The position numbers and the translations under genes were made by a program. This document shows, piece after piece, positions 1 through 29,808 of a stretch of DNA of 30,738 nt. Positions within the stretch are counted from its first letter, which is position 1; each line of letters begins with the position of its first letter. Location of the stretch: positions 1 to 30,738 of the IMG/VR virus record IMGVR_UViG_3300038701_001584, one strand, 5' to 3'. This DNA is from a virus. Below the pieces are notes generated by a model that did no database searches, had not been told where the DNA came from, and saw only the letters and a list, made by a program, of their open reading frames with translations.

Positions 1-732
1 GAGTCTCAGTACAACATTGACTACTTTGGAAACAAGGCAGTACCTCGTTATGTTGTAACTCTTAAGGGAGCAAAACTTTCTTCTGACGCTGAGGATAAAC
101 TGTTTAGATTCCTTCAAACAAATCTTAAGGGTCAGTCTCACAGAACTCTTTACATCCCGCTACCTGGCGATTCTGATACAAACAAAGTTGAGTTTGAGAT
201 GAAGCCCATAGAAAACGGGGTACAGGAAGCATCATTCAAAGAATATAGAACACAAAACCGTGACGATATTCTTATTGCACACCAAGTACCTCTGTCAAAA
301 ATTGGTGGTGGGGATAAATCTTCTATAGCTGCTGCCCTGGCACAAGATCGTACATTCAAAGAACAGGTATCGAGACCTTCTCAAAGAAATCTTGAGAAAA
401 TTATTAATCGTATAGTAAAAGAGCAAACCGACCTTGTTGAGTTTAAATTCAATGAACTTACTCTGACAGACGAAATTGCTCAAGCACAAATTCTTGAAAA
501 GTATGTTAAGACTCAGGTAATGACTCCAAACGAAGCAAGGGAGCAGCTTGGGTTGCCACAGAGAGCAGATGGTGATGATCCATTCCAAATGAACTCTAGA
601 CAAGCAAGTGATATGAGAGCTAACACAGCTCAGAATAGGGCAAGGGATACGGAGAGAGCCAATAATCAGGCTGATAGTCCTGCCACAGTAGATGGTCGCA
701 ATGCACAAGGTGAGGGCGCTGCGACGGAATAA
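1..732 (+). CDS. Phage portal protein, C-terminal part (5' end outside window)
   Basis: The frame is open from the first base, so the gene starts upstream. The visible 243 residues begin with a conserved portal stretch (YFGNKAVPRYVVTLKGAKLS), continue with a segment rich in aromatic and charged residues, and include the motif AHQVPLSKIGG, which resembles the part of PBSX/HK97-type portals that lies near the clip and wing. A long helical segment follows (about codons 120-180), with TPNEAREQLGLPQ, a motif typical of portal C-termini. The tail is a polar, disordered extension rich in Asn, Ala and Gln. Portals form the dodecameric DNA channel at one capsid vertex and bind terminase and the head-tail adaptor. 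The position just before protease and capsid genes fits. Portal assignment is firm; the exact family is from memory of motifs. Confidence 0.9.
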   Translation, partial: ESQYNIDYFGNKAVPRYVVTLKGAKLSSDAEDKLFRFLQTNLKGQSHRTLYIPLPGDSDTNKVEFEMKPIENGVQEASFKEYRTQNRDDILIAHQVPLSKIGGGDKSSIAAALAQDRTFKEQVSRPSQRNLEKIINRIVKEQTDLVEFKFNELTLTDEIAQAQILEKYVKTQVMTPNEAREQLGLPQRADGDDPFQMNSRQASDMRANTAQNRARDTERANNQADSPATVDGRNAQGEGAATE

Positions 733-2648: not shown

Positions 2649-3776
2649 ATGTCGGAAGAAATTAAGAAGAATCAGCCAGGTGAATCTGGTGAACTCGGAG
2701 GAACTGCACCAGGTGCTTACCAGGCACAAGGTGGTTTCGCATCGGGTGGCATCGGAGGCGTAACAGATCCTGGTGCTGATACACTTGGTAACATTCCAAC
2801 CGCCGAATTTGGCGTGACAACTGGTCCAAATGCTGTAAATCCTTCGGGTGATGCTGCAAGCGGTATTCTACGTCCAGAACAGGCTCGTCGTTTTATCGAC
2901 TACGTCTGGGACGGAACAGTTCTCGCCAAAGATGGTCGCCGTGTAACTATGCGTGCAAACACCATGGAACTTGAAAAAGTTAACGTTGGTGAGCGTGTTA
3001 TTCGTGCAGCTGCTCAAGGCGTTGGAAGCTATTCCAACACTGGTGCACAGTTCAGCAAAGTTGAACTAACCACCAAAAAGATCCGTCTCGACTGGGAGGT
3101 TACAGCAGAGGCACTCGAAGACAACGTCGAGGGTGCAGCTCTAGAAGACCACCTAGTTCGTTTGATGACCAATGCATTTGCAAATGACATCGAGGATCTA
3201 GCTATTAACGGTGATGGAACAACTGGAGACTTCCTTTCAATTATGAATGGATTCGTCAACCGCGCAACAGCCGGAGATGCTCATGAAGCAGCCGTAACTG
3301 TTACCGATGACGCTTGGACTCCAGAGGTTATGCAGGACATTATTCTTGCCATGCCACGTAAGTACCGCGCACTTAAGAACAACCTTAAGTTCTACGCTGG
3401 TACCGACGTATTCCAGGGTATCGTTAAAAACAATGGAACACTAGCTGACGCAATTGCTGAAGCTTTCGCTGGTCAGGTTTCTGGTACTGAAGCTAACGCT
3501 CAGTCCTACCTAGACGGCGTTGGACAGACATTCGGTGGAGCACGTACAACTCGTGTTCTCGGAATTGACGTCATGGAGGTTCCATACTACCCAGCAGGCT
3601 ATGTTGATCTAACTTTCCCACAGAACCGTATCTGGGGATTCCAGAGAGACATCACAGTCAACCGCGAGTATGTTGCAAAGAAAGACACAGTGGAGTACAC
3701 CGTGTTTGTTCGCTTCGGAATCCAATGGGAAGAAGAAGACGCAATTGCCTACGGTGACGCAGCTGCTGATAGCTAA
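2649..3776 (+). CDS. Major capsid protein, HK97 fold
   Basis: The 375-residue protein is preceded by AGGAGGT (2637-2643), five bases from the ATG. Residues 1 to about 70 are Gly/Pro/Ala-rich and probably disordered; no long helical delta domain is seen, as expected when scaffold is a separate protein. From LRPEQARRFIDYVWD onward the sequence follows the HK97 capsid plan: N-arm, E-loop segment (about 100-150), a spine-helix-like region with EDHLVRLMTNAFANDIEDLAINGDG, then the A-domain and a final beta segment VEYTVFVRFGIQWEEEDAIAYGD. It is followed by a terminator. Arg codons are almost all CGT or CGC, unlike most neighbours, as expected for a very highly expressed protein. Position after protease/scaffold and before connectors supports the call. 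Confidence 0.9.
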   Translation: MSEEIKKNQPGESGELGGTAPGAYQAQGGFASGGIGGVTDPGADTLGNIPTAEFGVTTGPNAVNPSGDAASGILRPEQARRFIDYVWDGTVLAKDGRRVTMRANTMELEKVNVGERVIRAAAQGVGSYSNTGAQFSKVELTTKKIRLDWEVTAEALEDNVEGAALEDHLVRLMTNAFANDIEDLAINGDGTTGDFLSIMNGFVNRATAGDAHEAAVTVTDDAWTPEVMQDIILAMPRKYRALKNNLKFYAGTDVFQGIVKNNGTLADAIAEAFAGQVSGTEANAQSYLDGVGQTFGGARTTRVLGIDVMEVPYYPAGYVDLTFPQNRIWGFQRDITVNREYVAKKDTVEYTVFVRFGIQWEEEDAIAYGDAAADS

Positions 3777-3836: not shown

Positions 3837-3845
3837 TGATATAAT
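3837..3845 (+). promoter_or_regulatory. Extended -10 promoter after capsid terminator
   Basis: TGATATAAT matches the extended -10 consensus TGnTATAAT. No -35 box is evident at 17 bases upstream, where the terminator stem lies. A start about seven bases after the hexamer falls at 3852, the first base of AGGAGG (3852-3857), so the transcript would begin with its ribosome site. Confidence 0.6.
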
Positions 3846-3861
3846 TATTTTAGGAGGAATG

Positions 3862-6766: not shown

Positions 6767-6817
6767 TGTAAATGAGGAAACACGCCCAATTTCATTATAG
6801 AAAATGAGGTGAAAATT

Positions 6818-7459
6818 ATGGCATATACTCGTGGTAATAGCTCGCAAATCATTGTGGGTGCTGCTGCGCTATTCACTTACGAAAACGGTGAAATGGCAGA
6901 TACTGATCTGCCAGACGTTGTCGAAGATGTATCCTTCAAGGAGACACTCTCTGACGATGCCGATTTCCGTAACGTTGGATACACTATGAACGGTCTAGAG
7001 ATCGTCTTCCAGCCTGACTTCGGTGAGGTACAGGTAGACCAGGTTCTCGACGTTGCCAAACTATACAAGCAGGGTATGCAGGTTAACCTTAACACTGCAT
7101 TCGCTGAGGCAACTCTAGAAAACCTATTGGTCTCTATCGCTGGTCGAGATGACGACCTTGCTACCGCTTCTACCGGTCCATTTACAGGTAACCCAGTTAT
7201 GAATCTTTCTGCTGGGGACATCGGTGAATGTCCAGTCGAGCGTGGTATGGTTGCAGTTGGTCCAGGTACTGGTGACTGTGCAGCTTCTGAATCCATCGAG
7301 CGCGTTTATGTTGCATACCGTGCACTCTCAATTGAGAATGTTACAGTATCCGCAAAGCGCGACGAGCCCACTATGTTCGAAGTTTCGTTCCGTCTTCTTC
7401 CAAATGACTCAGCGTCATACGGAAAGATTGTTGACAGAACGCTATCTCTCGTATCATAG
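6818..7459 (+). CDS. Major tail tube protein
   Basis: The start is the ATG at 6818: GAGGTG (6806-6811) is six bases away. A GTG at 6809 in the same frame overlaps this ribosome site and is rejected. The 213-residue product begins MAYTRGNSSQIIVGAAALFTY and has the beta-rich, Gly/Asp/Val-rich content of siphovirus tube proteins: strands with EDVSFKETLSDDADFRNVGYT, a helix-loop (VDQVLDVAKLYKQGM), and the end strand pair VTVSAKRDEPTMFEVSFRLLP. The product stacks as hexamer rings around the tape measure. Its own promoter, its own terminator and strong CGT-type codon choice suggest very high expression. It sits between terminator protein and chaperones, the canonical place. Confidence 0.85.
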   Translation: MAYTRGNSSQIIVGAAALFTYENGEMADTDLPDVVEDVSFKETLSDDADFRNVGYTMNGLEIVFQPDFGEVQVDQVLDVAKLYKQGMQVNLNTAFAEATLENLLVSIAGRDDDLATASTGPFTGNPVMNLSAGDIGECPVERGMVAVGPGTGDCAASESIERVYVAYRALSIENVTVSAKRDEPTMFEVSFRLLPNDSASYGKIVDRTLSLVS

Positions 7460-7478: not shown

Positions 7479-7509
7479 AAACCGCCCAGGATTCGTTCTG
7501 GGCGGTTTT
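7479..7509 (+). terminator. Rho-independent terminator after tail tube gene
   Basis: AAACCGCCCAG (7479-7489) pairs with CTGGGCGGTTT (7498-7508); two further weak pairs (G-U, A-U) extend it to a TTCG tetraloop at 7492-7495, with a run of T at 7506-7509. It lies 19 bases after the tube stop. It uses the same tetraloop as the capsid terminator. Confidence 0.92.
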
Positions 7510-7513
7510 GCTT

Positions 7514-7522
7514 TGGTATACT
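7514..7522 (+). promoter_or_regulatory. Extended -10 promoter giving a predicted leaderless mRNA
   Basis: TGGTATACT fits TGnTATAAT with one change. Counting seven bases from the hexamer places transcription start at 7529, the A of the ATG of the chaperone gene. There is no Shine-Dalgarno in the gap. No -35 box is seen, because that region is the terminator stem. The same nine bases recur at 28012-28020. Confidence 0.6.
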
Positions 7523-7528
7523 TAACTA

Positions 7529-8245
7529 ATGGCTAAAAATGTATACGATAAATCTAGGGTACAGCTAATTGATGGAACAAGATTAGAGCTAGGCCCACTC
7601 AATATTAAACATCTAAAAAAATTTATGGATGTTTTTTACCTTGTAGATTTTGCTACTACTGAAGATGAGTCAATCAGCATATTGACAGAATGTGCTGCTA
7701 TTTGTATGCAACAGTATTATCCAGTTTTGCAAACTCGTGAAGACGTTGAAGATAACTTTGACCTTCCTACCGTTTACAGAATTCTAGACATTTGCGGGGG
7801 AGTAAAAATTGATCCAAATAAAACTGAAGAAATAGACGATCAGGCCAAAAAGCAAGCAAAAGAAAACAAGAATACGTGGAAAGACCTAGACCTGGCAGAG
7901 CTGGAGGCAGAAGTTTTTCTGATTGGAAGTTGGAAAAATTTTGAAGAATTGGAGTATAGCCTTACTATGCCTGAGCTTATTGTTATTTTAGAACAAAAGC
8001 GTGAAAGCGAGCAAAATGATCGCAAGTTCCACGCAGCAATTCAGGGGGTAGACTTAGACAAGCATACAAGACAGGCTTCCGATCCTTGGGAAGAGATGAA
8101 GTCTAGAGTATTCAGTGGTGGACAAAGTAGTGATCCAAATGATATAATTTCATATCAGGGATATAAAGCACAGCAAGCTGGATTCGGAATAGGTATGGGT
8201 CTGGACTATGTTGACATGAAAAAAAAGCCTGAAAAATCAGACTAG
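7529..8245 (+). CDS. Tail assembly chaperone, fused long (GT-like) form
   Basis: The 238-residue protein has two parts. Residues 1 to about 100 are the chaperone N-domain (VQLIDGTRLELGPLNIKHL, then VEDNFDLPTVYRILDICGG), shared with the next gene. Residues 110-238 are the second domain that other siphoviruses reach by a programmed frameshift: WKDLDLAELEAEVFLIGSW, LTMPELIVILEQKRESEQ, DRKFHAAIQGVDLD. Here both are joined in one frame with no slip needed. Chaperones of this kind coat the tape measure and recruit tube subunits. There is no Shine-Dalgarno before ATG 7529; an extended -10 predicts a leaderless message. It is followed by its short paralogue, which seems to supply the G-only product. 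Confidence 0.8.
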   Translation: MAKNVYDKSRVQLIDGTRLELGPLNIKHLKKFMDVFYLVDFATTEDESISILTECAAICMQQYYPVLQTREDVEDNFDLPTVYRILDICGGVKIDPNKTEEIDDQAKKQAKENKNTWKDLDLAELEAEVFLIGSWKNFEELEYSLTMPELIVILEQKRESEQNDRKFHAAIQGVDLDKHTRQASDPWEEMKSRVFSGGQSSDPNDIISYQGYKAQQAGFGIGMGLDYVDMKKKPEKSD

Positions 8246-8250
8246 CTATA

Positions 8251-8259
8251 TGTTATAAT
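8251..8259 (+). promoter_or_regulatory. Extended -10 promoter between the two chaperone genes
   Basis: TGTTATAAT is a perfect TGnTATAAT. A start about seven bases downstream (near 8266) gives a leader of about 24 bases that includes AAAGGAG (8272-8278) before ATG 8290. No -35 box is evident. It would let the short chaperone be expressed independently of, and more than, the long one, and also drive the tape measure. Confidence 0.65.
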
Positions 8260-8289
8260 TAATATACCGACAAAGGAGAAAAAAGCAGC

Positions 8290-8604
8290 ATGGCAACTAA
8301 CATTAATCAAGAAACAACAATCACACTAGTTGATGGGCAAGAGGTCAACATTCGCCCATTAAAAATCTCACTGCTTCGTACTTTTATGAAAAAATTTGAG
8401 GGAATTCAAGAGGTGGCAAATGACAACGACAAGTCAATGAACATTCTTATGGAGTGTGTACAGATCGCTATGAGGCAGTACAAGCCAGAACTTGCTGAAG
8501 ATCGTAAAGCACTCGAAGACAATATTGATTTACCAACAGTATATCGTATTGTCGAGGAAGCATCTGGAGTAAAACTCTCAGACTCTAACCTCATCAACGT
8601 GTAA
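8290..8604 (+). CDS. Tail assembly chaperone, short (G-like) paralogue
   Basis: The 104-residue protein aligns with the N-domain of the gene just upstream: LVDGQEVNIRPLKISLLRTF against LIDGTRLELGPLNIKHLKKF, the shared pattern IL.EC...M.QY.P, and ED-N-(I/F)-DLPTVYRI in both, ending at a similar GVKL/GVKI. It lacks the second domain altogether. It has its own ribosome site (AAAGGAG, 8272-8278) and own promoter. In most siphoviruses one gene gives a short G and a frameshifted GT product; here the two appear as separate paralogues. It stops 18 bases before the tape measure gene. No frameshift route into another chaperone domain is visible past its stop. Confidence 0.8.
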   Translation: MATNINQETTITLVDGQEVNIRPLKISLLRTFMKKFEGIQEVANDNDKSMNILMECVQIAMRQYKPELAEDRKALEDNIDLPTVYRIVEEASGVKLSDSNLINV

Positions 8605-28287: not shown

Positions 28288-28595
28288 TGGCCACACGTCA
28301 AGAGCGTATGGCATTACTATCTCGTTACATAAAGCTACACACTGCACACTATCAAGAAAAGCCATCGCTTAACCTAAACACAGAGCAGTGGGCTTCAGAT
28401 ATGCTGATTGAGTCCTATGGGCTTCCAATGTGCTATGACATCCTGCACTATTATTTTGAGGCAGCGCAGCGACCTAGTTGGAAGTATTTCGCTAATTATG
28501 CTCAAAAAATCATTGAGGCAAAAGACAGCATTGAAAGAGACAAGCAAGAAAGAGCAGAGCTTAGGAAGAAAGCAAAGGCGTGGGTAAATGAATAA
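28287..28595 (+). CDS. Small helical protein, possible helicase loader
   Basis: 102 residues, nearly all helical. It starts MATRQERMALLSRYIKLHTA, has WASDMLIESYGLPMCYDILH in the middle, and then YYFEAAQRPSWKYFANYAQK, a pattern loosely reminiscent of the C-terminal domain of DnaD-type loaders. The C-terminus is a basic helix (ERAELRKKAKAWVNE). It overlaps the helicase gene by eight bases (ATGAATAA), and phages often encode the loader next to the helicase. Function is inferred from position, size and helical content; there is no decisive motif. Confidence 0.55.
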   Translation: MATRQERMALLSRYIKLHTAHYQEKPSLNLNTEQWASDMLIESYGLPMCYDILHYYFEAAQRPSWKYFANYAQKIIEAKDSIERDKQERAELRKKAKAWVNE

Positions 28596-29808
28596 TACAG
28601 AATCAAAAGTAATTTCTGCTGTACTAGAAGACAAACAAATTCATGTTCTTCTTCAGGCTAACGTAGACAATCTTCTTCGTACACATAAAGATATTTGGGA
28701 ATTTGTTCGAAAGTATTTTGAGCAGAATTCCTCAATGCCTCCTGCCTCATTGGTGATAGAAAAGTTTAGGGACTTTGAGCCCGTTTCGGGGGTAGGTGCC
28801 ACCAAGCATCACCTAGAAGAGCTTCAAACAGAGTATCTAAACGACTCACTAAAAGAAATTGTTAGGGTAACTGCTGCTGATCTTCAGTCTGGCAACGGTA
28901 CTCATGCTTTAGAAGAGATTCTAAAAAAGACTTCTGAGCTTCAGAAAAATACTTCTGCAATCAAAGATGTTGATGTTACAGACTTAAACTCTGTGCTTGC
29001 CTATTTTGAAGAAGTAAAGAAAAAGCAAGCTCTGGGAATTATGGGCATCAGGACTGGCCTTCCAGGATTTGACGATTATCTACCAGCAGGTATCATGCCA
29101 GGACAGCTTGGCGTATTTCTTGCTTATCCAGGAATCGGTAAGTCTTGGCTGTCTCTTTACTTTGCTGTTCAGGCTTGGAAACAGGGCAAGTCTCCAATGA
29201 TCATTAGTCTTGAGATGTCTGAGACAGAGGTTCGTAACCGAGTTCTTACTATCATGGGAGAAGGTCTCTGGACGCATAGAAAGCTTAGTGCTGGAGAGGT
29301 CGATGCTGAAGACCTGAAGAATTGGTACAATCAGCACATGGAGGGCAAGCCAAAGTTCAATATTATCTCCAATGATGCGGGTGGAGAAATTACTCCATCA
29401 GTTTTGCGAGGAAAGATTGATCAATACAAGCCAGACTTCGTTGTCGTTGACTATCTTCAGCTTATGAGTCCTAACCAAAAGTCTGAAAATGAGACGGTAA
29501 GGATGAAAAACCTTTCTCGTGAATTAAAACTGATGGCAATTAGCGAAGAGGTTCCCATCATCGCTATTTCTTCAGCTACGCCCGATGATGTAACAAAGCT
29601 TGACACTGTTCCCACACTAGGACAAACAGCTTGGTCGAGGCAGATTGCCTATGACTCTGACTGGGTTATCGCAATGGGTCGTGCCACTAATAGTGACGTA
29701 ATCGAAGTTGCCTGGAGAAAGAATCGTAATGGTATGATGACCGATTTCTTCATTCAGGTTGATTTCAATAAAGGTTGGTTTAAGTACAAGGATATAGAAG
29801 ACATCTAG
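28588..29808 (+). CDS. DnaB-like replicative helicase
   Basis: 406 residues. The N-terminal helical domain (about 1-140, with NTESKVISAVLEDKQIHVLL) resembles the DnaB collar domain. The RecA-like motor follows: GLPGFDDYLPAGIMPGQL, Walker A AYPGIGKSW (about 179-187), IISLEMSETEVRNRVL, Walker B FVVVDYLQLM (about 284-293), and the basic finger WRKNRNG (376-382). The Walker A begins with Ala, not Gly. After the sensor strand the usual SQ is SSATPDD. The catalytic residues Lys and Asp are present, so activity is expected: 5'-3' unwinding at the phage fork. The primase downstream and the possible loader upstream complete a replisome cassette. Confidence 0.9.
   Translation: MNNTESKVISAVLEDKQIHVLLQANVDNLLRTHKDIWEFVRKYFEQNSSMPPASLVIEKFRDFEPVSGVGATKHHLEELQTEYLNDSLKEIVRVTAADLQSGNGTHALEEILKKTSELQKNTSAIKDVDVTDLNSVLAYFEEVKKKQALGIMGIRTGLPGFDDYLPAGIMPGQLGVFLAYPGIGKSWLSLYFAVQAWKQGKSPMIISLEMSETEVRNRVLTIMGEGLWTHRKLSAGEVDAEDLKNWYNQHMEGKPKFNIISNDAGGEITPSVLRGKIDQYKPDFVVVDYLQLMSPNQKSENETVRMKNLSRELKLMAISEEVPIIAISSATPDDVTKLDTVPTLGQTAWSRQIAYDSDWVIAMGRATNSDVIEVAWRKNRNGMMTDFFIQVDFNKGWFKYKDIEDI

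Follow-up and report, generated by a model that had tools for sequence, protein, structure and literature searches.

The frameshift in tail assembly chaperone genes is among the best-conserved viral recoding events; the usual explanation is that a fixed ratio is required between the short chaperone, G, and its extended form, GT. Wide conservation of the G/GT frameshift has been documented with T4 as an exception, and phage lambda makes a short G together with a minor GT (PMC5009743). A mechanism other than frameshifting is proposed for T4-like chaperones by Vladimirov et al. (2022, Virology 566:9-15), and a study of Microbacterium phages reports the absence of an evident frameshift from some members of cluster EA (Jacobs-Sera et al. 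2020, PMC7302621). With regard to expression, actinobacterial promoters show a TANNNT motif whose centre lies 7-12 bp ahead of the transcription start, and translation from a 5' ATG is common in these bacteria (PMC3898074). Within the literature searched, largely outside subscription journals, there is no description of a siphovirus with an in-frame GT fusion and a G paralogue, nor of a chaperone pair with one leaderless and one leadered message.

The locus considered here lies in a 30.7-kb uncultured virus record, referred to below as the window. Its tail genes run in the order major tail protein, a long chaperone-like gene (F), a short one (S) and tape measure protein (Table 1), i.e., F and S occupy the position of G/GT chaperones. 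The structural genes resemble those of Streptomyces phages of the Stanwilliamsviridae: the two chaperone genes match annotated tail assembly chaperones of that family with E-values down to 1e-34 (tblastn), and the orthologues of the large ORF behind S are annotated there as tail length tape measure protein. As one part of the joint best explanation, the phage is quite probably of the siphovirus type and related to the Stanwilliamsviridae. The tape measure protein would be the expected client of the F and S products, and the major tail protein the expected partner of the C-terminal domain of F. A profile of S run against 84,980 bacterial and archaeal genomes recovered no relative and no link to a host or prophage. 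Elsewhere in the window, a DnaB-like replicative helicase (PHROG 19) is encoded at 28588-29808, shortly past the tail module, and at 3837-3859 an extended -10 element (TGATATAAT) lies 13 nt 5' of an ATG with AGGAGG between them, which would give a very short leader to a 115-aa gene 3' of a virion structural protein gene.

Table 1. Features of the chaperone locus, with positions in the window
Feature	Position	Strand	Basis or remark
Major tail protein (Ig-domain)	6809..7459	+	PHROG 2175, E 4.7e-29; PHROG 885 'major tail protein', E 0.0027; isolate annotations
Intrinsic terminator after the major tail gene	7480..7509	+	10-bp stem AACCGCCCAG/CTGGGCGGTT plus U-tract, read directly
Predicted F promoter, extended -10 TGGTATACT, 6 nt before ATG	7514..7522	+	Directly past the terminator hairpin
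F, GT-like tail assembly chaperone fused in frame, 238 aa	7529..8245	+	PHROG 10504 and PHROG 10474; alignment; AlphaFold2
Parts of F: N-domain, residues ~1-95; linker, ~96-116; T-domain, ~117-238			
GAT CCA AAT, broken heptamer TCCAAAT	7814..7822	+	Comparison with canonical GAC CCA AAT
Predicted S promoter, extended -10 TGTTATAAT	8251..8259	+	Seen in all 66 distinct relatives, 17-58 nt upstream
S Shine-Dalgarno, AAAGGAG	8272..8278	+	Present in 64/66 distinct S leaders
S, stand-alone short chaperone, G-like, 104 aa	8290..8604	+	PHROG 10504; groups with canonical G of L118/L124
Tape measure protein, 2783 aa	8623..16974	+	ORF; immediately 3' of S

The two genes stand exactly where the first-pass annotation of this DNA had placed them, and its reading of the long one as carrying both chaperone domains in a single frame is borne out by profile comparison: F matches PHROG 10504 (E 2.7e-23) and, at residues 135-193, PHROG 10474, two families that in the canonical relatives correspond to the G ORF and to the T ORF in the -1 frame, respectively. 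S matches PHROG 10504 (E 5.6e-21) and has no match to PHROG 10474, in agreement with the proposal that it is a paralogue of the N-domain only. Aligning the two N-domains, as had been suggested, reveals strong homology (43% identity and 64% similarity over 96 aa; BLASTP E 5e-24), and the shared motifs quoted at that time, EDNFDLPTVYRI in one protein against EDNIDLPTVYRI in the other and ILTECAAICMQQYYP against ILMECVQIAMRQYKP, were read correctly. Thus, a short form (N) and a long form (N plus a C-terminal part) of one domain are both present in the window. Neither protein has a meaningful match in Pfam, and a sequence search of the PDB with F and S returned chance matches only (E > 0.3).

Structure prediction with AlphaFold2 (pLDDT 73.5 for F and 71.8 for S) gives the S model and the N-domain of the F model an identical order of secondary structure elements, two strands plus helices. 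Foldseek against the PDB detected nothing significant for F. In fold comparison, YqbN and HK97, both known chaperones, come at or close to the top, with Z-scores below 5 that are weak matches: F against YqbN (3klu) reaches Z 4.6 over 84 residues and against HK97 (2ob9) Z 3.5, and S against the HK97 gp13 fold (2ob9) Z 4.5 over 87 residues. Several viral proteins named tail assembly chaperone also appear among the fold matches.

Relatives of each protein were fetched from IMG/VR and from isolate genomes, and every locus was classed by the frames of its N- and T-domains. N and T share a single open frame at 113 loci, and the search for the same pair advised by the first-pass annotation found S downstream at 112 of these; the one of the 113 without it (L101) is on a contig that ends directly past F. 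At a further 43 loci, including those of five isolate phages, T lies in the -1 frame, and none of them has a second copy of the N-domain. A scan with a T-domain profile added 75 loci of the fused type with S (on contigs that are partly repeated), two canonical loci without S (L215 and L217), two fused loci truncated by the end of their contig, and one contig that begins inside T and carries S, as does that of L053. Mixed architectures are absent among the classed loci: the fused gene goes with S and the canonical gene with no second copy. This co-occurrence reflects one evolutionary origin and not many independent ones. Among isolate phages, each of the 127 matching records has a single copy, and the duplicated form is known here from metagenomes only. 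Three loci that might have been taken for fused genes with an in-frame stop (L201, L214, L231) turned out to be ordinary fused genes in which the match had overrun the gene's own stop. A separate point of annotation concerns phage Faust (L002), in which the deposited second chaperone is a 19-aa CDS (3591-3650) while the T ORF in the -1 frame spans 3294-3650, so that the annotation misses the frameshift product.

The two architectures differ correspondingly in the slippery site. An in-frame X XXY YYZ heptamer (CCCAAAT/C, GGGAAAC, AAATTTA, TTTAAAT or CCCAAAA) occurs in the overlap of 26 of 29 distinct canonical G genes as against 11.0 expected under synonymous codon shuffling, from which all expected counts were derived. 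The three exceptions are isolates, Coruscant, Braelyn and Mandalore (L001, L004, L005), whose frameshift overlap has CCCGGAA where the others have CCCAAAT. The linkers of 76 distinct fused genes contain eight heptamers against 9.2 expected, i.e., no excess, at scattered positions, and no conserved slip site was found across them; in the window, the T-domain is in frame with the N-domain and not in the -1 frame behind a heptamer. A functional slip inside F giving a short product, or a lack of homology between the two N-domains, had been named as what would tell against this reading; the sequences offer no conserved heptamer for the first, and the homology is strong. At 7814-7825 the window reads GAT CCA AAT AAA, which is one base short of matching the canonical CCCAAAT and is followed by a -1 stop, and the heptamer position may be a decayed remnant of the canonical slippery site. 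Two other fused genes (L041:3250-3939 and the equivalent positions of L043) have an in-frame CCCAAAT at codon 95 with a -1 TAA immediately after it; a slip there would give a product consisting of the N-domain only, and the site may be either a relic or live. A slip in the A-rich terminal part of F (A AAA AAG, ~8217-8223) was also considered; it would meet a stop one or two codons later and could not divide G from T.

The direction of the change emerges from a tree of the major tail and tape measure proteins, in which all fused loci form one group (support 98; 90/74 in a second tree). Their nearest relatives are the canonical loci L118, L215 and L217, joined to them at 100/100, and this joint group is nested among other canonical phages. 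The three sister loci encode G and a -1-frame T with the heptamer GGGAAAC or CCCAAAC and have no paralogue. From this nesting it follows that the frameshift is the ancestral state and was probably lost a single time, with duplication plus fusion as its probable replacement. The gene duplication put forward in the first-pass annotation is thus well supported by the sister lineages, the lost heptamer and the presence of S at all fused loci that are sufficiently long. In the N-domain tree, F forms one group (96) and S joins the canonical G of L118 and L124 (95), with F outside the group of S and the L118 G instead of next to S. A clade of F and S is not rejected (AU p 0.229), so a duplication after the split from L118 is possible and would be the simplest reading. 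The two copies have since behaved differently: S is the better conserved in 498 of 500 genome pairs (mean identity 74%, versus 50% for the N-domain of F), and both genes are under purifying selection, with dN/dS < 0.2 in all close pairs for which it could be computed. Judged by these comparisons, S is the conserved G and F its diverging partner, and it is S, not the upstream N-domain, that appears to retain the ancestral G sequence along with its expression signals.

These signals separate the two genes further. The promoter and ribosome-binding site attributed to S in the first-pass annotation are indeed there, and F and S have separate predicted promoters. The F promoter and the missing Shine-Dalgarno sequence of the window F had escaped attention. 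Among the relatives of F, the -10 box (TATACT, TACAAT, TATAAT, TACACT or TAGAAT, in most cases with a TGn extension) ends 5-7 nt 5' of the ATG in 62 of 62 distinct sequences, and at exactly 6 nt in 58; a Shine-Dalgarno sequence was found in none of the 62 upstream regions. The further loci from the T-domain scan have this spacing at exactly 6 nt in 60 of 73, with the rest at 5-9 nt by eye, and spacing of the leaderless type occurs in 4 of 302 other ORFs of the same loci, which served as a control. A terminator-like hairpin, ending just ahead of the promoter, is present in 59 of 62 distinct 70-nt regions 5' of fused genes versus 11 of 62 shuffled ones. The F mRNA is thereby predicted to be leaderless, with transcription starting at the ATG, under promoter rules that are assumed and may not be those of the host. 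Terminator and promoter are shared by the canonical G genes: the terminator lies 53-79 nt upstream in 24 of 26 of them and at 129 nt in one more, the -10 is mostly 23-43 nt before the start, and a Shine-Dalgarno sequence is present in 25 of 25. Terminator-like sites 5' of S are few: 6 of 70 loci within 160 nt, or 9 of 66 within 70 nt in a laxer scan. It appears that F lost its leader and that S kept the ancestral G layout of promoter, leader and Shine-Dalgarno sequence. In mycobacteria, translation of leaderless mRNAs is about as efficient as that of mRNAs with a Shine-Dalgarno sequence (PMC8485053), so leaderlessness alone need not lower the amount of F, and its effect is not predictable.

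The reading favoured here, at a probability of roughly 0.8, is that F supplies GT and S supplies G after a duplication from a frameshifting ancestor. An ancestor with one locus would have produced G and GT by -1 programmed ribosomal frameshifting, and a tandem duplication would have doubled that locus. G and T would then have been joined in one frame in the upstream copy, where the slippery site would have decayed, leaving only the GT form (F), while the downstream copy would have lost T and retained only the G form (S). Beyond the terminator of the major tail gene, F would be transcribed from its own promoter only, starting at the ATG, and S from its own promoter as well as from that of F; with S served by two promoters and F by one, an excess of S over F would be expected, given comparable promoters. 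The level of F may be further tuned by its leaderless start. Because F looks leaderless and S leadered, the G:GT ratio probably depends on translation initiation in addition to promoters. The sequences themselves show the homology, the architecture, the lost slippery site, the exact co-occurrence, the polarity given by the sister group and where the promoters and Shine-Dalgarno sequences lie; chaperone function, transcription starts and both direction and size of the ratio are inferred. The fuller statement, that the frameshift was escaped via duplication and that the ratio is now set by a leaderless GT message and a leadered, Shine-Dalgarno-bearing G message, is offered tentatively, at slightly less than even odds.

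Several alternatives bear on different parts of this account. F might still yield a short product by slippage in the manner of dnaX, in which slippage leads to an early stop, with S as an accessory and not the source of G. The CCCAAAT sites of L041 and L043 with their -1 TAA would suit this, as would, in the window, the derived TCCAAAT with its -1 TAA and an AAATTTT at codon 136 that is directly followed by a -1 stop; it is nevertheless highly improbable given that the heptamers of the fused linkers do not exceed expectation and are unconserved among close relatives, and that S exceeds the N-domain of F in conservation and has kept the signals of the ancestral G. S could alternatively have taken up a new role (e.g., as a co-chaperone for one end of the tape measure protein), with F alone doing the work of G and GT as a homopolymer. 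The 57% difference between the N-domains of the window pair and the faster evolution of F leave room for functional divergence of this kind, but the copy that clusters with the canonical G and has been conserved is S, not F, and S is found at every fused locus with enough sequence, which makes such a role unlikely.

The genes might also be as described while the ratio results solely from read-through of transcripts and the stability of the mRNA, with no regulatory role for the leaderless start of F. The comparable output of leaderless and Shine-Dalgarno reporters in mycobacteria (PMC8485053) speaks for this, as does the scarcity of terminators before S, which would place S on both transcripts. 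Yet the spacing of the F promoter is near-invariant over a divergent clade, unlike that of the leadered S and G, and this suggests selection, so that read-through alone seems somewhat unlikely as the full explanation. As for the in-frame fusion being an error of assembly or sequencing, single-base indels are common and would create just such a fusion; the comparative data refute it, with 80 distinct fused versions with varied linkers from many metagenomes, all of them open, and low dN/dS across the gene, and its chance is vanishingly small.

If duplication did relieve the frameshift in this way, a large clade of uncultured phages has replaced a ribosomal slip by two genes, one apparently with a leaderless and one with an ordinary message. 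Sister lineages that have the frameshift can then be set against those that lack it, as a natural experiment on how a protein ratio is set, allowing a direct test of whether selection acts on the ratio itself or on the slip; the comparison also illustrates how a ratio encoded in elongation can move to transcription and initiation. For the annotation of these phages, the practical rule would be to take the gene before the tape measure gene as the G chaperone and to seek no frameshift.

Set against the described systems, the locus resembles those of the Stanwilliamsviridae (Coruscant, Faust, Annadreamy, Braelyn), with which it shares both the N- and T-domain families and the placement of the chaperones between the major tail protein and the tape measure protein, and it would follow the logic of lambda, with its short G and minor GT (PMC5009743). 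Both the Stanwilliamsviridae and lambda use one locus with a -1 frameshift, whereas in the window T is in frame and G would come from a second gene. The leaderless mRNAs of Actinobacteria (Cortes et al. 2013, PMC3898074) combine a TANNNT -10 with translation from a 5' ATG, as predicted for F; that set comprises cellular genes, whereas the window has a phage pair, one predicted to be leaderless and one leadered, in which the ratio matters. Paralogous chaperones that dispense with the frameshift are probably already known from T4-like phages. The T4 chaperones, which we take to be gp26 and gp51, belong to one Pfam family (PF12322). Like them, the pair in the window consists of two paralogous, frameshift-free chaperone genes that would be separately expressed, with separate promoters predicted; the T4-like pair differs in belonging to an unrelated sequence family and to a myovirus and in being divergently transcribed.
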